Shown here: one piece after another, positions 12,688 to 29,530 of the stretch
Numbering within the stretch: position 1 is the first letter of the stretch
Layout of the letters: each line of letters opens with the position of its first letter
Assembly: GCA_009693325.1 (NCBI GenBank)
Contig: SHXM01000005.1
Coordinates: 1 to 44,715 of the forward strand
Length of the DNA stretch: 44,715 bases
From: Rhodoferax sp.
GTDB lineage: Bacteria > Pseudomonadota > Gammaproteobacteria > Burkholderiales > Burkholderiaceae_C
Direction of reading: 5' to 3'
Made by a program: the position numbers and the translations under genes
The notes under the pieces: generated by a model
Databases searched by the model: none
Told to the model about the DNA's origin: nothing
What the model saw: only the letters and a program-made list of their open reading frames with translations

Positions 12688-13036
12688 ATTTTTTTGCTAC
12701 CAGTGTGTGCCACTATCGATTTGCCAAATCAGCCTCGAGCCCTGGTAGATACAGCGCAGGGTTTGATCATCCCGCAGCGGCAGCTTGATGCCACAGCAGT
12801 TCACCGGACCGGGCGCGGTGCCAGCCCGCAGCGATTCAGAATCGCCGATTCGTCCCGCAACTATCGGCTGCGCTGATCGACCTCAAAGTCAGTTGCCGGT
12901 TAGATCGCTCCGGTGGTTGGTGGCCCGTCCTGATCGTTGCCCTTGGCTTCTGGCAAATGCCCGCCGGGCCGCAGCCCCAGGCCCTTGTCTGTGCTAGCCT
13001 TTGGTACTCGACCACCAACAACTCAGGAGAACACCT
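12688..13036. other. Intergenic stretch without a recognisable gene
   Basis: Between the VapC debris and the Bug receptor gene I see no convincing coding region. Short frames exist on both strands but match no family I know and lack ribosome sites. The last 15 bases contain the CAGGAGAA ribosome site of the receptor gene (about 13024-13031). The receptor promoter must lie here, but no clear -35/-10 pair stands out. It may be further decayed accessory DNA. Confidence 0.5.
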
Positions 13037-14020
13037 ATGTCAACCCGGCGCTTTAGTTTGCTGCAATCTGCGGTTTTTGCGGTTTTTTTAATGCTTGGCA
13101 GTTATCCGGCCTGGGCCCAAACCGACTACCCCAGCAAGCCGGTCAAAGTGGTCGTGGCCTTTCCGCCCGGCGGGACCAGTGATGTGATGGCCAGAATGCT
13201 TGCCGACGAACTCAGCAAGAGCCTCAAGCAGCCCTTTGTGGTGGAGAACATTGGTGGCGCTGGTGGCACCATTGGCATTGAGCGGGCCCTGAAATTGCCG
13301 GCCGACGGCTACACACTGATCCAGACCGGCGTCGGCCAAAGTGCCGTGGCCCACGGGCTCGACCCTAATTTGCGCTACAACTCGATGAGCGACTTCATCC
13401 ACCTGTCACAAGTGCACTCGGGCCCCAATGTGCTGGTGGTGCACCCCGCCACGCCGTACAAGACGGTTGCCGATGTGGTCGACTTCGCCAAGAAGAACCC
13501 CGGCAAGCTGGACTACGGCTTTACCCATGCAGCCTCTGGCCACATGGCCATGGAGCTGTTCAAGCAAACCGCGGGCATTGAGCTCACTGGCATTCCCTAC
13601 AAGGGCGGCGGCCCCATGCTGATCGACCTGCTGGCCGGTGTGATTCCCACCATGTTCATCAACCAGGATGCGGCGCTGGCCCATGTGCGCGCTGGCAAGA
13701 TGCGGGCCATTGCGGTGAGCAGTGTGGCGCGCAACCCGCTCTACCCCGATGTGCCAACCATCGCTGAATCTGGCTACAAAGGTTTTGAGGCGCTGTCCTG
13801 GTCGGGCATGTCGGTGGCCAAGGGCACGCCGCAGGCGGTGGTGGACAAGCTCGAAGCCGCCATCTCGCAGGCCATGCAGTCAGACACCATTCGCCAGCGC
13901 ATGACTTCGGTCGGTTTTGTTGTGCCGCCCCAGGGCAGCAAGCACTACACCACCTTCGTCAAGTCTGAACTCGACACCTGGGTACGAGTGATTAAGACCG
14001 CTGGTATCAAGCCGGAATAA
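13037..14020 (+). CDS. Bug/TctC-family tripartite tricarboxylate receptor protein
   Basis: A 327-residue periplasmic solute-binding protein. The signal peptide ends near YPAWAQ|TDYP. The mature protein opens with the Bug signature YPSKPVKVVVAFPPGGTSDV, followed by VVENIGGAGGTIG and ADGYTL. IPYKGGGPMLIDLLAG and PTIAESGYKGFE follow later. Such proteins bind carboxylates and feed TctAB permeases, or act as orphan sensors; no tctA or tctB lies in the window. The start at 13037 has a strong AGGAGA site; twelve upstream in-frame codons are not needed. It stands alone and converges on htpG. Confidence 0.93.
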   Translation: MSTRRFSLLQSAVFAVFLMLGSYPAWAQTDYPSKPVKVVVAFPPGGTSDVMARMLADELSKSLKQPFVVENIGGAGGTIGIERALKLPADGYTLIQTGVGQSAVAHGLDPNLRYNSMSDFIHLSQVHSGPNVLVVHPATPYKTVADVVDFAKKNPGKLDYGFTHAASGHMAMELFKQTAGIELTGIPYKGGGPMLIDLLAGVIPTMFINQDAALAHVRAGKMRAIAVSSVARNPLYPDVPTIAESGYKGFEALSWSGMSVAKGTPQAVVDKLEAAISQAMQSDTIRQRMTSVGFVVPPQGSKHYTTFVKSELDTWVRVIKTAGIKPE

Positions 14021-17895: not shown

Positions 17896-18072
17896 AACCG
17901 AGATTGTTCATGAGGGTTTGGCGTGCAGGCCGATGCAGTGACGAGGCAGTTTTGTCCTGACTGAGGCGTCCATAGCTTGGGCTTTGGACAAGGAAGAAGG
18001 GCGGATGTGACTGTCAATGCGCGGCCTGCATCCAAACAGCACCGCAGGTGCGCCTCATGGACAATTTCGGTT
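17896..18072 (+). repeat. MITE-like repeat, copy B
   Basis: A second copy of the element at 16588-16717, in opposite orientation. It opens with AACCGAGATTGTTCATGAGG, continues through GGCGTGCAGGCC and the shared core GATGCAGTGACGAGGCAG then TTTTGTCCTGACTGAGGCG. It ends in the inverted counterpart CTCATGGACAATTTCGGTT. It is longer than copy A (about 177 bp) through extra internal sequence and a 13-15 bp insertion in the right arm. Its right end touches the TGA of the Crp/Fnr gene (18072-18074), just as copy A touches the stop of its neighbour. Confidence 0.65.
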
Positions 18073-18785
18073 CAACCTGCAAACACCTGGGTCCGCAGCG
18101 CGCCCAGGTCCAGCACCCGCAGGCCGCCGTACTCGATCCGGATCGAGCCCTCTGCGGCCAAAGCGCTTAACGCCTCGTTGACGCGCTGGCGTGACAGGCC
18201 GACCAAGTAGGCCAGCTCCTGCTGTGTGATGCTGAGCACCTCGCCCACGCCGGGATAGAGAACCGGGTTGAACAGCGCCGCCAGGCTGCGCGCCACGCGC
18301 AGGTTCGGACTGGGCATACGGTCAATCTCGCGTGCTGCGATGAACTGACCCAGGCGCTCGTTGAGCTGATTCATCACAAACCGGTTGAAGGCAATGGAGT
18401 TGTCTAGCAGCCAGTGAAAGGTCTCGACATGCAGACCTGCAACCCGGCTTTTGCGCAGGGCCTGCATGTTGTAGCGGTAGCTTTCGCGCTTGAGCGCCGT
18501 ACCCTCGCCAAACCAACCCCCTGGCGGAATGCCGGTGAAGGTCATGGTTTGTCCCTGCGCGCTGTCGCTGCTCATCTTGAGCAGGCCGTCGATCACGCCA
18601 AACCAGTAGGTGGCGGGGCGGCCCGCACGGCACACAAACTCACCGGCTTGCGCGTCGGCTATTTTTAAGTCTTGTGCGGCGCGTTCATGCTCGGCCGGCG
18701 CCAGCAGTGCCATCCAGGGGATGGCATGGGTCTCGGCCTCGGTGGGGCGGCGTTGGCGATGGTACAGGGGTGCCTGGGATCTCAT
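18072..18785 (-). CDS. Crp/Fnr-family transcriptional regulator
   Basis: A 237-residue regulator with an N-terminal cyclic-nucleotide-binding-type barrel (GEFVCRAGRPATYWFGVIDG, GGWFGEGTAL), a dimerisation helix and a C-terminal winged helix (LSITQQELAYLVGLSRQRV then NEALSALAAEG). It lacks the cysteine set of iron-sulfur FNR. The recognition helix reads SRQRVNEAL, with Q where Crp and Fnr carry the base-contacting glutamate, so its site should differ from TGTGA/TTGAT. I start at the ATG read from 18785; a GTG at 18824 would add 13 residues but runs towards the promoter region. It is divergent from the ligase/ABC-importer operon and is its likely regulator. Confidence 0.9.
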   Translation of the reverse strand: MRSQAPLYHRQRRPTEAETHAIPWMALLAPAEHERAAQDLKIADAQAGEFVCRAGRPATYWFGVIDGLLKMSSDSAQGQTMTFTGIPPGGWFGEGTALKRESYRYNMQALRKSRVAGLHVETFHWLLDNSIAFNRFVMNQLNERLGQFIAAREIDRMPSPNLRVARSLAALFNPVLYPGVGEVLSITQQELAYLVGLSRQRVNEALSALAAEGSIRIEYGGLRVLDLGALRTQVFAG

Positions 18786-18843
18786 GGTGTCGCGCGGCTG
18801 TAAGTTGAACCGAAGGGAAAACACCTAGCAAATAGGCGTCAAA

Positions 18844-18861
18844 TTGTCGTTCAAACGACAA
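18844..18861. promoter_or_regulatory. Perfect 18-bp palindrome, predicted Crp/Fnr-type operator
   Basis: TTGTCGTT and AACGACAA form a perfect 8-bp inverted repeat around CA. This is the 2-fold spacing expected for a Crp/Fnr dimer, with half-sites related to TTGT rather than TTGAT. Flanking GGCGTCAAA 9-mers (18836-18844 and 18866-18874) form a direct repeat around it. It lies in the gap between the divergent Crp/Fnr gene and the ligase/importer operon, centred 41.5 bases before the start point predicted from the -10 at 18882. Confidence 0.75.
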
Positions 18862-18881
18862 CATGGCGTCAAACAGATGCC

Positions 18882-18887
18882 TATCAT
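18882..18887 (+). promoter_or_regulatory. Predicted -10 element of the ligase/ABC-importer operon
   Basis: TATCAT matches the sigma-70 -10 consensus at five of six positions. No good -35 hexamer stands 16-18 bases upstream, which is usual for activator-dependent promoters. With +1 near 18894 the upstream palindrome is centred at -41.5, the class II activator position. The leader before the ligase ATG at 18949 is then about 55 nt. Confidence 0.55.
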
Positions 18888-18948: not shown

Positions 18949-20895
18949 ATGCAGACCACTTTCCCTCAATTGTTATTTCAGCATGCCGTCCAGCGCCCGG
19001 GCGATGCGGCCATGCGCGAAAAAGAATACGGTATTTGGCAGGCCCTGAGCTGGGCCGATCTCGCCACCATGGTGTCGCACCTGGCCTGCGGCCTGCACCA
19101 AGCCGGTCTGCGCCGGGGGCAGCACATGGTGGTGGTGGGAGCCAACCGACCGCGCCTGTACGCAGCCATGCTGGCCGCGCAGTCCCTGGGTGCGGTGCCG
19201 ATCCCGCTGTACCAGGACGCAGCCGCTGCAGAGTGCGTGTTCCCAATCAACAACGCCGACGTGGCCTTCGCCTTTGCCGAGGACCAAGAGCAGGTCGACA
19301 AACTGCTGGAGGCACGTGCCCAGTGCCCAGGCCTGGCGCACATTTATTTTGATGACCCCCGCGGATTACGGAATTACGACGAGCCGGGTCTGGCCTCGCT
19401 GGATGAATTGTTGGCGGCCGGCCAGGCCTTCGCCGCGCTGCACCCGGATTTCGTCAAGAGTGAGGTGGCGCTGTCGCAGCCCCACGATGTGGCAGCCATG
19501 TTCTTCACCTCGGGCACCACTGGCAACCCCAAGGGCGTGGTGCACACCCACAACTCTTTGCTCGACCGGGCCCGTGCTGGCGCCGAGTTCGACCATTTAA
19601 CGCACCGCGAAGAGGTGCTGGCCTATTTGCCGCCAGCCTGGATCGGGCAGAACATCTTCAGCTATGCGCAGTGGCTGTCCTGTGGCTATGTGGTCAACTG
19701 CCCTGAATCGCCAGCCACGGTGACGATCGACCTCAAGGAAGTCGGGCCCACCTATTACTTTGCCCCGCCCAGGGTGTTTGAAGGCCTGTTGACCAGCGTG
19801 ATGATTCGCATGGAAGACGCCGGCACCCTCAAGCGCCATTTGTTTCATGCCTGCATGGCCTTGGCCAAGCGGGTTGGCCCGGCCTTGATGGACGGCGCGC
19901 CAGTCGGCTTGACCGACCGGCTCTTGTATGCGCTGGGCAATCTGCTGGTCTACGGCCCGCTGCGCAACACCCTGGGCTTGAGCCGGGTGCGCGTGGGCTA
20001 CACCGCAGGCGAGGCCATAGGCCCAGACCTGTTCACCTTCTACCGCTCGATTGGCATCAACCTCAAGCAACTCTACGGCTCGACCGAGACCGCCGTGTTT
20101 GTCTGCCTGCAGCCCGACCATGAAGCCCGCGCCGATACCGTGGGCGTGCCGATTGCCGGGGTTGAGATCAAGGTGTCTGACAACGGCGAAATCCTGGTCA
20201 AGTCACCCGGGCTGCTCAAGGAGTATTTCAAGAACCCGCAGGCCACGGCCGAGGTGCTCACCGCCGATGGCTGGTACCACACCAGCGACGCCGGTTTTCT
20301 GGATGCGCACGGCCACCTGAAGATCATCGACCGCGTGAAAGACGTCGGTCGCATTCGCGGCGGCGCCAACGACGGCGCCATCTTCGCGCCCAAATACGTG
20401 GAGAACAAGCTCAAGTTTTTTCCGCACATCAAGGAGGTGGTAGCCTACGGAGACGGTCGCGAGAAGGTCTGCGTCATGATCAACATCGACTTTGACGCAG
20501 TGGGCAATTGGGCCGAACGCCGCAACCTGCCCTACGCCGGCTACACCGACCTGGCGCAAAAGCCCGAGGTCTACCAGCTGATCAAAGACTGCGTGGAAAA
20601 AGTCAATGCCGACCTCAGCGCCGACACCCTGCTGGCTGGCAGCCAGGTCAGCCGCTTTCTGGTGCTGCACAAGGAACTCGATGCCGACGACGGCGAGCTG
20701 ACCCGCACCAACAAGGTCCGTCGCGGCTTTATTGCCGACAAATACCTGCCACTGGTCGACGCCTTGTACGGCGGCGCCAGCAGCCAGTTCATCACCACCC
20801 AAGTCAAGTTTGAGGATGGGCGCACCGGCAGCGTTAGCGCCACCCTGCGCATCGATGACGCCAAAACCTTCGCCCCGGTAAAGGCAGCTGCATGA
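18949..20895 (+). CDS. Long AMP-forming acyl-CoA synthetase (FAA1/FadD15-like)
   Basis: A 648-residue ANL enzyme of the long (COG1022-like) type. It shows MFFTSGTTGNPKGVVHTHNS, YTAGEAIGPDLFTFY, YGSTETAVFVCL, GWYHTSDAGFLDAHG and the hinge KIIDRVKDVGRIRGGANDGA. A late ELTRTNKVRRGFIADKY carries the C-terminal lysine region. It starts at ATG 18949; the frame upstream runs through the promoter. It is first in an operon with a full LIV-type importer and overlaps the next gene as ATGA, so the imported acid is probably activated to a CoA thioester on entry. The substrate could be a fatty, aromatic or terpenoid acid; sequence alone does not decide. Confidence 0.88.
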   Translation: MQTTFPQLLFQHAVQRPGDAAMREKEYGIWQALSWADLATMVSHLACGLHQAGLRRGQHMVVVGANRPRLYAAMLAAQSLGAVPIPLYQDAAAAECVFPINNADVAFAFAEDQEQVDKLLEARAQCPGLAHIYFDDPRGLRNYDEPGLASLDELLAAGQAFAALHPDFVKSEVALSQPHDVAAMFFTSGTTGNPKGVVHTHNSLLDRARAGAEFDHLTHREEVLAYLPPAWIGQNIFSYAQWLSCGYVVNCPESPATVTIDLKEVGPTYYFAPPRVFEGLLTSVMIRMEDAGTLKRHLFHACMALAKRVGPALMDGAPVGLTDRLLYALGNLLVYGPLRNTLGLSRVRVGYTAGEAIGPDLFTFYRSIGINLKQLYGSTETAVFVCLQPDHEARADTVGVPIAGVEIKVSDNGEILVKSPGLLKEYFKNPQATAEVLTADGWYHTSDAGFLDAHGHLKIIDRVKDVGRIRGGANDGAIFAPKYVENKLKFFPHIKEVVAYGDGREKVCVMINIDFDAVGNWAERRNLPYAGYTDLAQKPEVYQLIKDCVEKVNADLSADTLLAGSQVSRFLVLHKELDADDGELTRTNKVRRGFIADKYLPLVDALYGGASSQFITTQVKFEDGRTGSVSATLRIDDAKTFAPVKAAA

Positions 20896-21677
20896 GTGCC
20901 AAAAAGACCGGCGATGTGGTGCTCGATGCCAAGAACATCTCCCTGAGTTTTGGTGGCGTCAAGGCGCTGACCGACATCTCCTTTGATGTGCGTGAACACG
21001 AGGTACGCGCCATCATCGGGCCCAACGGTGCTGGCAAGAGCTCCATGCTCAATTGCATCAATGGGGTGTACACGCCGCAGCAGGGCACCATCAGCTTCAT
21101 GGGTCAGACCTTTGACCATATGGACAGCCATCAGGTGGCGGTGATGGGCATTGCCCGCACCTTCCAGAATCTGGCGCTGTTCAAGGGCATGAGCGTGATC
21201 GACAACATCATGACTGGGCGCAACCTGTGCATCAAGAGCAATCTATTTTGGCAAGCGCTGCGCATCGGACCGGCCCAACGCGAGGAAGAGCGACACCGCG
21301 AGTTTGTGGAGCACATCATTGATTTTTTAGAAATCCAGGCTTACCGCAAAACGCCGGTGGGCCAATTGCCCTACGGCTTGCAAAAAAGGGTCGACCTGGG
21401 CCGCGCGTTGGCCATGGAGCCCCGGGTGTTGCTGCTTGATGAGCCCATGGCCGGCATGAACGTGGAAGAAAAACAGGACATGTGCCGCTTTGTGCTCGAC
21501 GTGAACCAAGAGTACGGCACCACAGTGGTGCTGATCGAGCACGACATGGGGGTGGTGATGGACATCTCTGACCGGGTGGTGGTGCTCGACTACGGAAAAA
21601 AAATTGGTGACGGCACATCGGATGAAGTACGCAACAGCGAGGAAGTGATCAGCGCCTATCTGGGCACCAGCCACTAA
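20892..21677 (+). CDS. LivG-type ABC transporter ATPase
   Basis: A 261-residue ATPase of the branched-chain amino acid (HAAT/LIV) importer class. Walker A is GPNGAGKSS (43-51), the signature region reads LPYGLQKRVDLGRAL (a variant of the LSYGQQR motif), Walker B is VLLLDEP and the switch histidine is in LIEHDMG. The insertion before the signature is typical for LivG rather than LivF. It overlaps the ligase gene by ATGA and is followed 5 bases later by the permease gene. It powers uptake across the inner membrane with the LivF-type subunit at 25314. Confidence 0.93.
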   Translation: MSAKKTGDVVLDAKNISLSFGGVKALTDISFDVREHEVRAIIGPNGAGKSSMLNCINGVYTPQQGTISFMGQTFDHMDSHQVAVMGIARTFQNLALFKGMSVIDNIMTGRNLCIKSNLFWQALRIGPAQREEERHREFVEHIIDFLEIQAYRKTPVGQLPYGLQKRVDLGRALAMEPRVLLLDEPMAGMNVEEKQDMCRFVLDVNQEYGTTVVLIEHDMGVVMDISDRVVVLDYGKKIGDGTSDEVRNSEEVISAYLGTSH

Positions 21678-21682
21678 AGCAC

Positions 21683-22612
21683 ATGGCATTCTTTCTTGAA
21701 ACTTTGTTGGGCGGCCTGATGGCCGGCATGCTGTATTCACTCGTGGCGCTGGGCTTTGTGCTGATTTACAAGGCCTCGGGCGTGTTCAATTTTGCGCAGG
21801 GCGCCATGGTGCTGTTTGCGGCGCTGGCCATGGCCCGCTTTGCCGAATGGATTCCAGCCTGGACCGGCCTGAGCAGCCCGGTCTTGGCCAATGTGCTGGC
21901 CTTTATGGTGGCGGGGGCGATCATGTTTGTGGTGGCCTGGCTGATCGAGCGTCTGGCCTTACGCCATCTGGTCAACCAGGAGGGCACCACCCTGCTGATG
22001 GCCACCCTGGGCATCAGCTACTTTCTGGACGGCATTGGCCAGACCCTGTTTGGCAGCACCATTTACAAGATTGACATCGGCATGCCCAAAGACCCGATCT
22101 TTGTACTCGACACGGTGTTCCCCGGCGGTATTTTGATCAACAAGGAAGACCTGTATGCAGCCCTGATCGCGGCCCTGCTGGTGACGGGACTCAGCCTTTT
22201 CTTCCAAAAAACCGCCACCGGCCGTGCCCTGCGCGCGGTGGCCGACGACCATCAGGCGGCGCAAAGCATCGGTATTCCGCTCAACCGCATTTGGGTGATC
22301 GTCTGGTGCGTGGCCGGGGTGGTGGCGCTGGTGGCCGGCATGATCTGGGGCAGCAAGCTGGGCGTGCAGTTTTCCCTGACCACCGTGGCGCTGCGTGCCC
22401 TGCCGGTGGTGATTCTCGGCGGTCTGACCTCGGTGCCCGGCGCCATCATCGGCGGACTGATCATCGGCGTGGGCGAGAAACTCTCCGAGGTGTTCCTGGG
22501 CCCCTATGTGGGCGGCGGCATCGAGATCTGGTTCGCCTACGTGCTGGCCCTGGCGTTTTTGATGTTTCGCCCCCAGGGACTGTTTGGTGAAAAAATTATT
22601 GACCGAGTATGA
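21683..22612 (+). CDS. LivH-type ABC transporter permease
   Basis: A 309-residue membrane protein with about eight hydrophobic segments. It starts FLETLLGGLMAGMLYSLVAL, with GFVLIYKASGVFNFAQGAMV typical of LivH. The EAA-like cytoplasmic loop is represented by KTATGRALRAVADDHQAAQS, followed by GIPLNRI. It forms the translocation pore with the LivM-type subunit. GC is very high: 44 of 60 bases in 22381-22440 by hand count, unlike the next gene. Confidence 0.93.
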   Translation: MAFFLETLLGGLMAGMLYSLVALGFVLIYKASGVFNFAQGAMVLFAALAMARFAEWIPAWTGLSSPVLANVLAFMVAGAIMFVVAWLIERLALRHLVNQEGTTLLMATLGISYFLDGIGQTLFGSTIYKIDIGMPKDPIFVLDTVFPGGILINKEDLYAALIAALLVTGLSLFFQKTATGRALRAVADDHQAAQSIGIPLNRIWVIVWCVAGVVALVAGMIWGSKLGVQFSLTTVALRALPVVILGGLTSVPGAIIGGLIIGVGEKLSEVFLGPYVGGGIEIWFAYVLALAFLMFRPQGLFGEKIIDRV

Positions 22613-22615
22613 AAC

Positions 22616-22726
22616 CTTGCGGGACAGACCAAGATTTGCGCAGCGAATTTGCTCTGTCCCCAACTAAGCAGACGAACTTGCGGGACAGACCAAGATTTGC
22701 GCAGCGAATTTGCTCTGTCCCCAACT
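22616..22726. repeat. Tandem REP-like palindromic repeat (two identical 50-bp copies)
   Basis: Two identical 50-bp copies (22616-22665 and 22677-22726) lie 61 bases apart between the two permease genes. Each carries GGGACAGA near its start and TCTGTCCC near its end, an 8-bp perfect stem, around AT-rich sequence with GCGCAGCGAATTTGC. The form resembles GGGACAGA-type REP palindromes often linked to REP-associated tyrosine transposases; this link is from memory. The copies add about 140 bases inside an otherwise compact operon and could form hairpins that affect downstream expression. Confidence 0.8.
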
Positions 22727-22754
22727 GAATAGATGGAAGAAAAGAAAGATTTCG

Positions 22755-23831
22755 ATGTTTTACAGAGAAAACGGCCAGTTCAGAACCACTTACCGGGCCG
22801 ACCAGCAAATATTTCCGATCAGCCAAGACCGCTGGGCGATTTTTGCCCTGCTGGTGGTCGCGGTTGTTGGTGTGCCCTTGTTCGCCGATGAATATATGTT
22901 GCGCGCAATTTTCATCCCCTTCCTGATTTTGTCCCTGGCTGCTTTGGGCGTGAATATTTTGGTGGGCTATTGCGGCCAGATTTCACTTGGTTCTGGCGCC
23001 TTCATGGCTGTTGGTGCCTACGCTGCGTACAACATGTATGTGCGCATTGATGGCATGCCAGTCATCCTGGCCTTGCTGACTGGCGGCTTTTTCGCGACTT
23101 TGGTGGGAATCTTGTTTGGCATTCCCAGTTTGCGTGTGAAAGGCCTTTATTTGGCACTGGCCACGCTTGCCGCACAGTTTTTTTGCGACTGGGCGTTTTT
23201 GCGCGTGAATTGGTTTACCAACAACAGCACCTCGGGTTCGGTGGCTGTCGCCGAATTCAATGTCGCAGGCTGGGCGATTACCTCGCCCGCGAGCCGGTAT
23301 TTGTTTTGTCTGGGATTTGTGTTGGTATTCGGCGTGTTGGCCAAAAACCTCGTGCGAGGTGCCATAGGGCGTGAATGGATGGCGATTCGAGACATGGACG
23401 TGGCCGCCGCGGTGATCGGCATCCGTCCGATGTATGCCAAGCTCAGTGCTTTCGCCGTAAGTTCATTCATTGTGGGCGTCGCTGGAGGGCTGTGGGGCTT
23501 TGTCCACCTCGGCGCCTGGGAGCCAGCAGCGTTTTCGATAGATCGATCCTTTCAAATGCTCTTCATGGTCATCATCGGCGGGCTGGGCTCTATCATGGGC
23601 AGCTTTTTTGGTGCCGCCTTCATCGTCGCGCTGCCAATTTTTCTGAATCAATTTTTGCCTCTCTTGGGTGTGCCTTTTGGCCTCACTGTGTCTACCGCTT
23701 TTCTCTCCCATGCCGAATCGATGGCCTTTGGCGCCTTGATTGTCTGGTTTTTGATCGTCGAGCCGCACGGCCTGGCGAAACTGTGGAGCGTGGGTAAGCA
23801 AAAAATGCGGCTTTGGCCTTTCCCCCATTGA
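22755..23831 (+). CDS. LivM-type ABC transporter permease
   Basis: A 358-residue membrane protein starting MFYRENGQFRTTYRADQQIF, then about nine hydrophobic segments including ALGVNILVGYCGQISLGSGA, the LivM signature. The EAA-like loop has GREWMAIRDMDVAAAVIGI. The start at 22755 has an AAGAAAG site; upstream in-frame codons fall in the REP repeat. GC is markedly lower than in the neighbouring permease gene: 28 of 60 bases in 23641-23700. Codons ending in T are frequent, which suggests that this gene has a different history from its neighbours. Confidence 0.93.
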   Translation: MFYRENGQFRTTYRADQQIFPISQDRWAIFALLVVAVVGVPLFADEYMLRAIFIPFLILSLAALGVNILVGYCGQISLGSGAFMAVGAYAAYNMYVRIDGMPVILALLTGGFFATLVGILFGIPSLRVKGLYLALATLAAQFFCDWAFLRVNWFTNNSTSGSVAVAEFNVAGWAITSPASRYLFCLGFVLVFGVLAKNLVRGAIGREWMAIRDMDVAAAVIGIRPMYAKLSAFAVSSFIVGVAGGLWGFVHLGAWEPAAFSIDRSFQMLFMVIIGGLGSIMGSFFGAAFIVALPIFLNQFLPLLGVPFGLTVSTAFLSHAESMAFGALIVWFLIVEPHGLAKLWSVGKQKMRLWPFPH

Positions 23832-23902
23832 TTAGGCCAGGCAAGTGGTTGTTTTGTTCGTTAACCAAAGGTGCGTCCGCACCGCTATTTGAGGAGACTG
23901 TC

Positions 23903-25219
23903 ATGAAAATACGTAACATCGCGATGGCCGGGTTGCTGGCTGCCACTGGCGCCACAGCCCTGGCGCAGGCTAAGGAGCAGTTTTTCCCGGTTCTAACCGG
24001 TCGAACTGGCCCGGTTGCGCCCAATGCTGCCCCCTGGGCAAATGGACATAACGACTACATGAAGCTGGTCAACGCGCGGGGCGGCATCAATGGTGTCAAG
24101 ACTTTGCTGGAGGAGTGTGAAACCGCTTACGACACCGCCCGCGGTGTGGAGTGTTACGAGCGCCTCAAGGGCAAACACGGTGGCGCCACGGTGTTCCAGC
24201 CCTTGTCCACTGGCATCACATTTGCGCTGACCGAAAAGATCCCCGGCGACAAAATTCCCATTATTACCTCGGGCTATGGCCGAAGTGATTCAGCGGATGG
24301 CGGCATTTTCAAGTGGAACTTCCCCCTGATTGGGCACTACTGGGTAGCTGGGGATGCCGTGCTCAAGCACATTGGCAACAAGGTCGGCGGCATGGAAAAC
24401 CTCAAAGGAAAGAAAATTGGCGTCGGCTATCACGACAGCGCTTTTGGCAAAGAGGTCCTGCCAATTTTGCAGGAGCGGGCAGCGCAATATGGTTTCTCTT
24501 TGCTGTTGTTGCCCATTGCGCCTCCCGGCGTTGAGCAAAAAGCTACATGGCTCCAAGTGCGCCAGCAGCAACCTGACTACGTGATTTTGCAGACCTGGGG
24601 TGTGATGACGGCGGCTTCCGTGAAAGAGGCGCAGGCGGTGGGCTACCCTAGAGAAAAAATGTTTGGTACCTGGTGGTCGGGCGCTGAGCCTGATTTGAAG
24701 GATGTTGGGCAGGGTGCCAAGGGCTACAACGCGGTCATGATGCAGCATGGTGCCGAGCCGCAGTCGGCCGTGGTCAAGGAAATTTTGGAGAAGGTGCATG
24801 CCAAGGGGCAGGGAACCGGGGCCAAGGAGGAGGTTGGTGAGGTGCTCTACATGCGCGGTGTAATCGGAGCCATGTTGGCAACGGAAGGTGTTCGTGCAGC
24901 CCAGGAGCGTTTTGGAAAGGGCAAGGTTGTCACGGGTGAGCAGGCCCGCTGGGGCTATGAAAACCTCAACCTGACCCAGGCCAAACTCGACACCCTGGGT
25001 TTCAAGGGCGTGATGCGACCGGTTTCCACCAACTGCGTTGACCACATGGGTGCGGCCTGGGCGCGGGTGCACACCTGGGACGGGGCCAAGTTTGTCTGGA
25101 GTTCCGATTGGCTGCAGGCCGATGAACAAGTGATCAGGCCCTTGGTCAGGAATTCGGCAGACAAATACGCCGCCGAGAAAAAACTGACACGCCGCACCCC
25201 GGCGGACTGCCAGTCCTGA
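23903..25219 (+). CDS. LIV-type ABC transporter periplasmic substrate-binding protein
   Basis: A 438-residue exported binding protein. The signal peptide is MKIRNIAMAGLLAATGATAL with cleavage near ALAQA. The mature part has the two-lobed type I binding fold: LTGRTGPVAPNAAPWANGHN, CYERLKGKHGGATVFQPLST, GKKIGVGYHDSAFGKEV and MFGTWWSGAEPDL. It is longer than leucine-binding proteins and matches the subgroup found with CoA ligases in Betaproteobacteria (recollection). It has a strong GAGGAG site. Base composition is intermediate (33 of 60 GC in 24241-24300) and rises towards the end. Two hairpins follow its stop codon. Confidence 0.92.
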   Translation: MKIRNIAMAGLLAATGATALAQAKEQFFPVLTGRTGPVAPNAAPWANGHNDYMKLVNARGGINGVKTLLEECETAYDTARGVECYERLKGKHGGATVFQPLSTGITFALTEKIPGDKIPIITSGYGRSDSADGGIFKWNFPLIGHYWVAGDAVLKHIGNKVGGMENLKGKKIGVGYHDSAFGKEVLPILQERAAQYGFSLLLLPIAPPGVEQKATWLQVRQQQPDYVILQTWGVMTAASVKEAQAVGYPREKMFGTWWSGAEPDLKDVGQGAKGYNAVMMQHGAEPQSAVVKEILEKVHAKGQGTGAKEEVGEVLYMRGVIGAMLATEGVRAAQERFGKGKVVTGEQARWGYENLNLTQAKLDTLGFKGVMRPVSTNCVDHMGAAWARVHTWDGAKFVWSSDWLQADEQVIRPLVRNSADKYAAEKKLTRRTPADCQS

Positions 25220-25227
25220 TGACCGAT

Positions 25228-25260
25228 CTGTCAGTCCGGGCAGCTTGCCCGGACTGACAG
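25228..25260 (+). terminator. Perfect 15-bp hairpin after the binding-protein gene
   Basis: CTGTCAGTCCGGGCA and TGCCCGGACTGACAG pair perfectly around GCT. It starts eight bases past the stop codon. No U-tract follows. Its place between the binding-protein gene and the second ATPase gene fits a partial terminator or a 3' stabiliser that raises binding-protein mRNA over downstream genes, as known in other binding-protein importer operons. Confidence 0.6.
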
Positions 25261-25261
25261 T

Positions 25262-25297
25262 CCAACCGGCAGCGCTGCGCGCAACGCTGCCGGTTGG
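25262..25297 (+). terminator. Second perfect 13-bp hairpin directly downstream
   Basis: CCAACCGGCAGCG and CGCTGCCGGTTGG pair around a 10-base loop, one base after the first hairpin. The LivF-type gene begins 16 bases later with an AAGGA site. Two stacked stable stems in an operon gap are unusual and point to control of expression stoichiometry. Confidence 0.6.
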
Positions 25298-25313
25298 CAA
25301 ACAGCAAGGATTT

Positions 25314-26123
25314 ATGGACACCCCCACAACAGTGCTCAACGTCAATGGCATTGAGGTCATCTACAGCCATGTTATTTTGGTGCTCAAGGGTGTTTCCCTG
25401 CAGGTGCCCGATGGCAAAATTGTGGCTATTTTGGGAGGCAACGGCGCGGGGAAAACCACCACGTTGCGCGCCGTGTCCAACCTGCTGCGCGGCGAACGCG
25501 GCGCTGTGACCAAGGGCTCGATTGAGCTGCGCGGCGAGCGCATCGAGAACCTGTCGCCGGCCGACCTGGTGCAGCGGGGCGTGGTGCAGGTGATGGAGGG
25601 GCGGCACTGCTTTGCCCACCTGACCATCGAAGAAAACCTGCTCACCGGCGGCTACACCCGTAAAGACAGGGCCGAGATTGCCCGCAACCTGGAAAAGGTG
25701 TACGCCTACTTTCCGCGCCTCAAAATGCGCCGCACCAGCCAGGCCGCCTACACCTCGGGTGGCGAGCAGCAGATGTGTGCCATCGGCCGGGCCCTGATGG
25801 CCAGCCCGAGCATGGTGCTGCTCGACGAGCCCTCGATGGGCCTGGCACCGCAGATCGTGCAAGAGGTGTTCGAGATCGTCAAAGACCTCAACCAAAAAGA
25901 GCGGGTCACCTTTTTGCTGGCCGAGCAGAACACCAACATGGCGCTGCGCTACGCCGACTACGGCTACATCATGGAATCGGGTCGGGTGGTGATGGACGGC
26001 GTGGCGAGTGACCTGGCCAACAACGAAGACGTCAAGGAGTTCTACCTGGGCGTGGGCGGTGGCGAGCGCAAGAGCTTTAAAGACGTGAAGAGTTACAAGC
26101 GGCGCAAGCGCTGGCTGGCCTGA
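25314..26123 (+). CDS. LivF-type ABC transporter ATPase
   Basis: A 269-residue ATPase. Walker A is GGNGAGKTTT, the signature region reads TSGGEQQMCAIGRALM, Walker B is MVLLDEPSMGLAP and the switch is LLAEQNTNMAL. The PxLGLAPxI-type Walker B tail is the LivF mark. It carries a basic C-terminal tail (KSYKRRKRWLA) not usual for LivF. The start at 25314 follows an AAGGA site; the open frame further upstream crosses the hairpins. It completes the importer with the LivG-type ATPase. Confidence 0.93.
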   Translation: MDTPTTVLNVNGIEVIYSHVILVLKGVSLQVPDGKIVAILGGNGAGKTTTLRAVSNLLRGERGAVTKGSIELRGERIENLSPADLVQRGVVQVMEGRHCFAHLTIEENLLTGGYTRKDRAEIARNLEKVYAYFPRLKMRRTSQAAYTSGGEQQMCAIGRALMASPSMVLLDEPSMGLAPQIVQEVFEIVKDLNQKERVTFLLAEQNTNMALRYADYGYIMESGRVVMDGVASDLANNEDVKEFYLGVGGGERKSFKDVKSYKRRKRWLA

Positions 26124-26134
26124 GGAAGACGCCC

Positions 26135-27391
26135 ATGACGACTTTTTTTGACATGCTAGAAACCCGCGAGCCAGCCCAGCGCGAGGCCGCACTGATGGCC
26201 GCCTTGCCAGCGCAGGTGGCCCATGCCAAGCAGGCCGCGGCCGCGCTGGCACAAATTCTGGCGGCGGTGGATCCTGCCGCCGTGACCAGCCGGCAGGCCC
26301 TGGCGCAGCTGCCGGTGACGCGCAAGCACGAGCTGCTGGAGCGCCAGCAGGCCAGCCGTGCCGTGGCCGGCGGCGATGTGTTTGGCGGCTTCAGCACCCT
26401 GGGCTATGGCGCGCAGATGCCGCGCCTGTTTGCCAGCCCGGGCCCGATTTACGAGCCCGAAGGCGCGGGCCGTGACTACTGGCGCATGGCGCGGGCCATT
26501 TTTGCCGCGGGGTTTCGCCCGGGTGAGCTGATTCACAACTGTTTCAGCTACCACTTTGTGCCGGCCGGCTCGATGATGGAGTCGGGCGCCCATGCGTTGG
26601 GCTGCACCGTGTTTGCGGGCGGCACCGGCCAGACCGAGCAGCAGGTGCAGGCCATGGCGCAGTTGCAGCCGGCGGGCTACATCGGCACCCCGAGCTTTTT
26701 GAAAATCATTGTCGACAAGGCCGCCGAGATGGGCGTGGCCCTGCCCAGCGTCACCAAGGCCATGTTTGGCGGTGAGGCGTACCCGCCCTCGCTGCGAGAC
26801 TGGTTTGCCGCGCGCGGGATTGCCGGCTACCAGTGCTATGCCACCGCCGATGTCGGCTCGATCGCGTTTGAGACCGCCGCCCGAGAGGGTCTGGTGCTCG
26901 ACGAGGGCGTGATTGTGGAGATCGTGCGCCCCGGCACCGGCGACCCGGTGGCCGACGGCGAAGTTGGTGAGCTGGTGGTGACCAGCCTGAACCCGGCCTA
27001 CCCGCTGATCCGCTTTGGCACGGGCGACCTGTCGGCGGTGCTGGCCGGACCCTGCCCCACGGGGCGTACCAACACCCGCATCAAGGGCTGGATGGGTCGG
27101 GCCGACCAGACCACCAAAATTCGCGGCATGTTTGTGCACCCGGCTCAGGTGGATGCTATTGCCAAGCGCTTCCCAGAGGTCGTCCGGGCGCGGCTGGTGG
27201 TCACCGGCGAGATGGCCAACGACGCCATGACGCTCAAGGTCGAGACGGCGGGCGAGCCAGCGGCGCTGGCCAGCCGCATTGGGGAGGCCATTCGCGACAT
27301 CACCAAGTTGCGCGGCGATGTCGAACTGCTGCCACTGGGTAGCCTGCCCAATGACGGCAAGGTGATTGAGGACGCCCGGAGTTACAAATAG
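26135..27391 (+). CDS. PaaK-like phenylacetate-CoA ligase family protein
   Basis: A 418-residue ANL protein of the PaaK/CoF-synthetase type: FSTLGYGAQMPRLFASPGPI, FRPGELIHNCFSYHFVPAGS, KAMFGGEAYPPSLRDWF, YPLIRFGTGDLSAVL and GRADQTTKIRGMFVHPAQV. It is last in the importer operon, 11 bases after the LivF-type gene. It is a second CoA ligase beside the FAA1-like enzyme, so either two classes of substrate are taken up or the enzymes act in sequence. The usual P-loop SSGTTGKP is replaced by LFASPGPI, so adenylation chemistry may be altered; similar replacements occur in this subgroup as I recall. Confidence 0.85.
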   Translation: MTTFFDMLETREPAQREAALMAALPAQVAHAKQAAAALAQILAAVDPAAVTSRQALAQLPVTRKHELLERQQASRAVAGGDVFGGFSTLGYGAQMPRLFASPGPIYEPEGAGRDYWRMARAIFAAGFRPGELIHNCFSYHFVPAGSMMESGAHALGCTVFAGGTGQTEQQVQAMAQLQPAGYIGTPSFLKIIVDKAAEMGVALPSVTKAMFGGEAYPPSLRDWFAARGIAGYQCYATADVGSIAFETAAREGLVLDEGVIVEIVRPGTGDPVADGEVGELVVTSLNPAYPLIRFGTGDLSAVLAGPCPTGRTNTRIKGWMGRADQTTKIRGMFVHPAQVDAIAKRFPEVVRARLVVTGEMANDAMTLKVETAGEPAALASRIGEAIRDITKLRGDVELLPLGSLPNDGKVIEDARSYK

Positions 27392-27525
27392 GTGAGATGC
27401 AAGTTGGAAGGCTTGACTTGCGATAAGCTCGCGTCAATCCGTCGTCGGCCTAGGTAGTTTCCGCATTGCGCGCAAGGCCTGGCCCCGCTACCCTTTGCTG
27501 TGTTTGTTTAAATTGGAGACTTGAA

Positions 27526-28509
27526 ATGAAACGTTTGCTAGTTCTTGCTGCTGCCACCGCCGCCCTGTTTGCCCAGGCCCAAACCTACCCCGGCAGCAAG
27601 CCCATCACACTGGTGGTGCCTTTTGCAGCGGGCGGCCCCACCGACCTGGTGGCGCGCCAGCTTGGCGAGGCCATGCGCAAAACCCTGCCGGGCAGCAACT
27701 TTGTAGTTGAAAACGTCAACGGTGCTGGCGGCACCATCGGTGCGACCAAGGTGGCCAAGGCAGCGCCCGATGGCCACACGCTGCTGGTTTGGCACATTGG
27801 CATGGCGGCTACTGCCGGCCTGTACCGCAAGCTGCAGTACAAGCCGCTGGAAGACTTTGAATACCTGGGCATGATCAACGATGTGCCCATGACCCTGGTT
27901 GGCAAGCCGCAACTGCCGGCCAACACCTACCGCGACTTTGAGAACTACATCCGTGCCAATGGCGGCGCGCTCAATATTGCCCATGCCGGTTTGGGCTCTG
28001 CCTCGCACCTGTGCGGCCTGATGTGGCAGTCAGCGGTGAACGCCAAAGAGGCCATGACCACCATACCTTACAACGGCACTGGCCCGGCCATGATCGCGCT
28101 CATCAGCGGGCAGGTCGATTTGATGTGCGACCAAACCACCAACACCACGCAGCAAATCGAGACTGGCCGGGTCAAGGCCTTTGCTGTCACCACGGCCGGG
28201 CGTCTGAACAACCACAAGTTGCTCAAAGACTATCCCTCGCTGCAGGAGATGGGCCTCAAGGGCTTCAACTTGACGGTCTGGCATGGCATGTATGCGCCCA
28301 AGGGTACGCCGCCGGCGGTGCTCAAGCAACTCAACGAGGCCATGAAGGCCGCCCTGAAAGACCCCGAGTTTCTCAAAATGCAGGAAGCCCTGGGCGCGGT
28401 GGTGGTCACCGACAAGCGCGTGGACCCCGAAGGCCACAAGGCTTTTGTAACCGCCGAGATCGCCAAGCTCAAGCCAGCCATCGAAGCTGCTGGCAAATTT
28501 GCGGACTGA
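27526..28509 (+). CDS. Bug/TctC-family periplasmic receptor protein (second)
   Basis: A 327-residue exported protein. The signal peptide is [23 protein letters not shown], and the mature start [20 protein letters not shown] is the Bug signature. [43 protein letters not shown] and [12 protein letters not shown] follow. Two cysteines (HLCGLMW, DLMCDQ) could form a disulfide. The ribosome site GGAGA lies nine bases before the ATG. It is followed by a third Bug gene only four bases downstream. Confidence 0.92.
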
Positions 28510-28513
28510 CGCC

Positions 28514-29530
28514 ATGCAAACCTGTCTCAGGGCTCAGGGGTTCAAGGCGCTCGCCCACGCCAGTGTTCTTGCAGTTGCCGGGCTCTGCCTGGCGGCCTCG
28601 GCATTGGCTCAGGGCAGCTGGCCGAGCCGGCCGGTGAAGATCGTGGTGCCGTTTGCGCCAGGTGGCACCACCGACATCCTGGCCCGGGCGGTTGCGCCTG
28701 AGCTGGCCCGGGCCTTTGGACAATCCTTTGTGGTGGAAAACCGGGGTGGTGCTGGCGGCAATATCGGCGCCGAGCAGGTCGCCAAAGCGCCAGGCGATGG
28801 CTACACCCTGTTGATGGGTACGGTTGGCACGCACGGCATCAACAAGTCGCTGTATGCCAAGCTGGCCTACGACCCGCAAAAAGACTTTGCCCCGATCACC
28901 CTGGTGGCCGGCGTACCCAATGTGATGGTCATGAACACCGAGCGGGCCCGACAACTGGGCATCAACAGCGTGCCAGACTTCATCAAGTATGCGCGCAGTC
29001 ATCCCGGCGAGTTCAACATGGCCTCTAGCGGCAGTGGCACCTCCATCCACCTGGCCGGCGAGTTGTTCAAGTCGATGACTGGTGTCAGCATGACGCACGT
29101 TCCCTACACCGGCTCCGGGCCGGCACTGCTGGGTCTGGTGGCGGGCCAGGTCGATGTCATGTTTGACAACCTACCCTCCTCAATGGCGCTAATCAAGGGC
29201 GGCAAGCTCAAGGCTTTTGCGGTCACCAGTGGCTCGCGCTCGCTGGCTATGCCGGACCTTCCGACGATCGAAGAGGCCGGCCAACTCAAAGGCTTTGAGG
29301 CAAGCAGCTGGTTCGGTTTGCTGGCACCGGCCGGCACGCCCGCTGAGGTAGTGAGCCGCCTGCAGCAAGAAACTGCCAAGGCCCTGAACTCCCCCGACAT
29401 GAAAGAAAAACTGCTGCTCCAAGGCGCGATTCCCAGCGGCAACACGCCACAAGAGTTTGCCGCACTGATCGAGGCTGAAATCAAAAAGTGGGCTCTGGTG
29501 GTCAAGGCCTCTGGCGCCCGGGTGGACTAA
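28514..29530 (+). CDS. Bug/TctC-family periplasmic receptor protein (third)
   Basis: A 338-residue exported receptor with a longer N-region before its hydrophobic signal segment ([20 protein letters not shown]). The mature part reads [72 protein letters not shown] and [13 protein letters not shown]. No strong ribosome site precedes ATG 28514, so translation probably depends on coupling to the preceding gene, whose stop ends four bases earlier. Despite adjacency it differs throughout from its neighbour, so this is not a recent duplication. Confidence 0.92.

Follow-up and report, generated by a model that had tools for sequence, protein, structure and literature searches.

A predicted class II operator for a Crp/Fnr-family regulator between its gene and an acyl-CoA ligase/ABC-importer operon in Rhodoferax sp.

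Analysis of a 44,715-nt contig of Rhodoferax sp. (SHXM01000005.1, here called the window) and comparison with related genomes indicated that a palindrome between two divergent genes is the operator of the adjacent Crp/Fnr-family regulator, from which an acyl-CoA ligase/ABC-importer operon would be activated in the class II manner, with autorepression of the regulator gene being probable (estimated probability about 0.82 for the reading as a whole). This reading is supported by the position of the site, its rigid spacing and conservation, its co-occurrence with the regulator gene, the fact that it follows the operon, and the lack of a −35 hexamer. The genes at the locus are:

18072 to 18785, minus strand: Crp/Fnr-family regulator, 237 amino acids, recognition helix SRQRVNEAL, one cysteine (Pfam cNMP_binding and HTH_Crp_2, both above gathering)
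18949 to 20895, plus strand: AMP-binding acyl-CoA ligase, operon gene 1, ATG at 18949 (PF00501, E = 2.4e-64; ortholog 3′ of the site in relatives)
20892 to 26123, plus strand: homologues of LivG, LivH, LivM, a periplasmic binding protein and LivF (Pfam and NCBIfam matches)
26135 to 27391, plus strand: PaaK-like acyl-CoA ligase (Pfam/NCBIfam matches)

The regulator belongs to the Crp/Fnr superfamily, as both a cyclic-nucleotide-binding-type domain (PF00027, 52.2 bits, cut-off 27.5) and a Crp winged helix (PF13545, 46.7 bits, cut-off 27) are present, and its start codon is most likely the ATG at 18785. The AlphaFold model of the protein, built from a shallow alignment, had a mean pLDDT of 58.8 and was usable for the winged helix only. 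An earlier note on this DNA had spoken of an importer operon; the operon does hold importer genes, but according to Pfam its first gene codes for the AMP-binding acyl-CoA ligase, with those for the importer lying behind it. Judged by its profile matches, the LivG/H/M/F set corresponds to an ABC importer of the branched-chain-amino-acid type, and the PaaK-like ligase gene is the probable last gene of the operon. By eye, three genes for TctC/Bug-type periplasmic binding proteins were also noticed (13001 to 14020, 27466 to 28509 and 28499 to 29530), two of them directly 3′ of the operon. The open reading frames between 32546 and 39168, likewise judged by eye, are reminiscent of an aerobic 2-aminobenzoyl-CoA pathway (FAD monooxygenase/OYE fusion, MarR regulator, enoyl-CoA hydratase, acyl-CoA dehydrogenase and benzoate-type CoA ligase).

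The following elements were located in and around the intergenic region:

18815 to 18827, plus strand: upstream G-rich box GGGAAAACACCTA, about −79 to −67 (fixed distance from the operator in relatives)
18843 to 18872, minus strand: candidate sigma-70-like regulator promoter from a promoter scan, −35 TTGACG at 18872 to 18867, 18-bp spacer, −10 GACAAT at 18848 to 18843
18843 to 18873, plus strand: 31-bp element ATTGTCG-N7-GACAA-N5-CGTCAAA, used for pattern searches with up to 2 mismatches in 61 genomes
18844 to 18861, strand-neutral: operator palindrome TTGTCGTTCAAACGACAA, that is TTGTCGTT-CA-AACGACAA, core TTGTC-N8-GACAA, centre 18852.5 (near-invariant in 111 shared promoters)
18867 to 18873, plus strand: CGTCAAA box, about −27 to −21 (CGTCAA invariant in operon promoters)
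18882 to 18887, plus strand: −10 hexamer TATCAT of the operon promoter (TAnnAT at the same exact offset in relatives)
18894, plus strand: predicted transcription start, from the spacing rule applied to the −10

The coordinates and the centre of the perfect palindrome were re-derived from the sequence and agreed with the earlier note, which had placed the site at −41.5 of a promoter with a −10 and no −35. The distance between the centres of operator and −10 hexamer is 32.0 bp, equivalent to −41.5 if the −10 occupies −12 to −7, and at spacers of 15 to 19 bp the best −35 candidate for the operon promoter matched at only 3 of 6 positions, so that both points held. Of 301 sampled genomes of the family, 262 have an ortholog of the regulator (E ≤ 1e-40). 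The alignment comprised 137 distinct promoter contexts, in which regulator and operon share the region in 111, the regulator alone is seen in 14 (including some contigs that end before the operon) and the operon alone in 12. TTGTCG and GACA are near invariant in the shared set (n = 111). A TAnnAT hexamer matching at 3 or more of its four positions lies at exactly the offset of the window in 129 of the 137 contexts (all four in 105), compared with 0 of 4658 background positions. With a site at about −41.5, conserved spacing to the −10 and no functional −35, the predicted promoter shares these features with class II promoters.

The site also accompanies the regulator gene from genome to genome. 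The 31-bp pattern was found in 49 of the 61 genomes searched, as a single copy in 48 and as two copies in one, and its reversed control gave no match in the same genomes. With the regulator scored as present at E < 1e-80, the pattern occurred in 49 of the 50 regulator-positive and none of the 11 regulator-negative genomes (Fisher p = 3e-11, for relatives of one family that are not independent samples), and the one regulator-positive genome lacking the pattern carries a diverged copy at the expected place. Of 21 exact palindromes in the genomes for which regulator coordinates were listed, 20 lay within 10 kb of the regulator. None of 117 genomes from other families contained the 31-bp element. 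Regulator orthologs with identities near 50% mostly lie next to the same ligase gene in divergent orientation; in 10 of 11 such loci (7 from other families of the order, 4 from more distant relatives within the family of the window) TTGTC-N8-GACAA is kept with no or one mismatch, and 8 of the 11 have a TA...T hexamer at an offset of 37 to 39. As palindrome core and −10 spacing persist in these distant orthologs, the class II geometry is older than the family-specific boxes.

The strongest competing explanation is that the palindrome mainly represses the promoter of the regulator itself, its distance to the operon −10 being incidental. The minus-strand TTGACG-18-GACAAT overlaps the palindrome and matches at 9 of 12 positions (0.1 expected in shuffles), and judged by its sequence it is likely the promoter of the regulator gene; the shared promoters show no variation in A18843 and CGTCAA, the parts that complete it. 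Because the site overlaps this plausible promoter, its conservation could partly reflect autoregulation, and because the same DNA holds both, a bound dimer would probably repress the regulator gene. Regulator and ligase operon are, however, apart in 7 genomes, and an eighth locus has the regulator without the operon in view: the upstream regions of all 8 regulators lack the site and the operon promoter retains it, therefore the site serves the operon. The rigid spacing between operator and −10 also speaks against a mainly repressive role, as does the retention of CGTCAAA in five operon promoters that lack a divergent neighbour and stand behind a tandem gene (L031, L101, L126, L139 and L148). 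We thus regard autorepression as the main role of the site as unlikely. For the operon, activation is likelier than repression, given the absent −35. Locus L148 (3073 to 4224) and similar loci (L101, L126, L139) have a gene for a substrate-binding protein with a twin-arginine-like signal between regulator and ligase; in L148-type loci a copy of the site precedes each gene, the regulator-side copy having a relaxed CGTCAAA.

The recognition helix of the regulator, GLSRQRVNEAL, has Arg-Gln where CRP has Arg-Glu and is nearly invariant in the orthologs, which bears out the earlier observation of Q in place of the canonical E. Aligned in the CRP register, the operator is TGTCG-N6-CGACA, compared with TGTGA-N6-TCACA for CRP. 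In CRP, Arg180 reads the G of TGT, and Glu181 and Arg185 usually read the next two bases. By this alignment the position of Arg180 contact is still a G, and the bases of Glu181 and Arg185 change along with those residues, which are Gln and Glu here. The helix of CooA in PDB entry 1ft9, SSRQTTSTAL, has the same Arg-Gln, and the published CooA consensus is TGTCGGCnnGCCGACA (PMC545781). The argument that Gln for Glu goes with altered half-sites is thus backed by CooA, which combines this helix with a TGTCG-N6-CGACA core. The same comparison qualifies the claim of a novel operator: the half-site is neither TGTGA nor TTGAT, but it is not new either, as CooA already has TGTCG-N6-CGACA, and its TGT is common to the TGTGA of CRP. 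Among paralogs of 35 to 45% identity with SRQ helices, several have similar upstream palindromes and others do not; distant Crp/Fnr paralogs with SRQ helices and upstream palindromes of the GTCGT/ACGAC type were seen at L206, L202, L208, L212 and L211. These sequences hint at a broader subfamily whose operators resemble that of CooA.

Two further boxes and the overlapping divergent promoter add to the picture drawn in the earlier note. CGTCAA is present in all 123 operon promoters of the family (111 of 111 shared, 12 of 12 operon-only), and CGTCAAA is loosened to forms like TGCCAAT where the regulator and another gene alone flank the site. CGTCAAA as the mere −35 of the divergent regulator promoter is disfavoured, as it persists in operon promoters without the regulator. 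The box differs by one mismatch from the operator right half CGACAA and lies 11 bp downstream of it. Tentatively, the operator could have three parts, with an obligatory third, half-site-like CGTCAAA between activator and −10 in addition to the CooA-like palindrome; equally tentative is the idea that this box, one helical turn downstream, would be recognised during activation, be it by the regulator or by some other protein. To our knowledge, no standard class II Crp/Fnr promoter has a CGTCAAA-like box in its spacer. About 30 bp separate the operator centre from the upstream G-rich box GGGAAAACACCTA, which has a single exact copy in the genome; in many relatives (e.g., L145 and L148) it resembles two GGG-N5-CCC 11-mers about 15 bp apart, a repeat that suggests a target of a second protein or of alpha-CTD. 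It was rejected as the site of a genome-wide regulator, there being no excess of near-copies in its own genome. A simple class II site accounts for neither box, and a further protein may be involved.

These unexplained neighbouring boxes also lend some weight to the explanation that the site is real and bound by a different transcription factor. This is nevertheless very improbable: from genome to genome the site goes together with the regulator gene, it is in the CRP register, and CooA pairs these helix residues with this very half-site. That the palindrome is a chance inverted repeat, perfect 8-N2-8 palindromes by themselves being unremarkable and near the chance level for a window this long (4 observed, 1.35 expected as Markov mean), is already refuted by sequence and spacing that are near-invariant in 137 promoters and kept across families; it is this conservation, and not palindromy per se, that makes it non-random. 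The operator sequence itself, at up to 3 mismatches, matched once in the window (0.08 expected). The search for further sites that the earlier note had proposed was run on the 2.77-Mb genome and gave nothing else with fewer than 3 mismatches.

In the preferred reading, that of class II activation, a dimer of the regulator would bind the palindrome centred at −41.5, substitute for the missing −35 contact and recruit sigma-70 RNA polymerase to the TATCAT −10, which would switch on the acyl-CoA ligase/ABC-importer operon. The retained CRP arginine would read the G of TGT, and Gln for Glu would, as in CooA, go with TGTCG instead of TGTGA; the same bound dimer would probably repress the regulator's own gene. 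Binding, activation, start point and autorepression, as well as effector and substrate, are aspects that we infer. The comparison of relatives strongly supports the adjacent Crp/Fnr protein as the putative class II activator, by conserved spacing, co-occurrence and the absent −35.

From this analysis, operator, target and mode of action can be predicted for a Crp/Fnr regulator that occurs in most genomes sampled from one Burkholderiales family and for which no characterisation was found in the open-access literature searched. Literature searches for the operator sequence and the operon returned nothing relevant, and an earlier description of the subgroup may exist. The Arg-Gln helix is tied here to a TGTCG half-site outside CooA, which could help to predict operators of other uncharacterised members, and the invariant CGTCAAA within a class II spacer poses a small puzzle that can be tested directly.

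Compared with known systems, the promoter resembles E. coli CRP class II promoters in the 32 bp from operator to −10 centre (−41.5), the lack of a good −35 and the 6-bp gap between half-sites. It differs from them in the half-site (TGTCG instead of TGTGA), in Gln for Glu181 and Glu for Arg185, and in the conserved CGTCAAA box in the spacer. The NCBIfam CRP equivalog model gave 33 bits with the regulator (cut-off 266), which argues against identity with cAMP-CRP; by eye, Glu94 and Arg104 of the cAMP pocket look retained and the Ser83 position is Tyr. FNR-type regulators share the fold family and the class II position, but their half-site TTGAT is not seen here, and an FNR-type four-cysteine iron-sulphur cluster is excluded by the single cysteine of the regulator (of 18 aligned orthologs, 17 have one cysteine and one has two). 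The best sequence match among solved structures was the SdrP-type Crp/Fnr protein of Thermus (2zcw, E = 3e-12), which unlike the regulator has Glu in its recognition helix; SdrP has been described as active without ligand (PMC12937710). No CooA chain was among the PDB profile matches of the regulator at E ≤ 0.001. CooA, the CO-sensing Crp/Fnr activator of Rhodospirillum and Desulfovibrio, has a heme-binding CO sensor domain (His77, Pro2) and controls coo genes, whereas the target here is a ligase/importer operon, and the inner bases of the CooA operator are GC, whereas they are TC here. The likeness to CooA lies in the Arg-Gln recognition helix, in half-sites of the TGTCG/TGTCA kind in the same register and in the local range of one or few operons. 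The arrangement is a solid but ordinary case of a known type of gene activation that recurs across a bacterial family.
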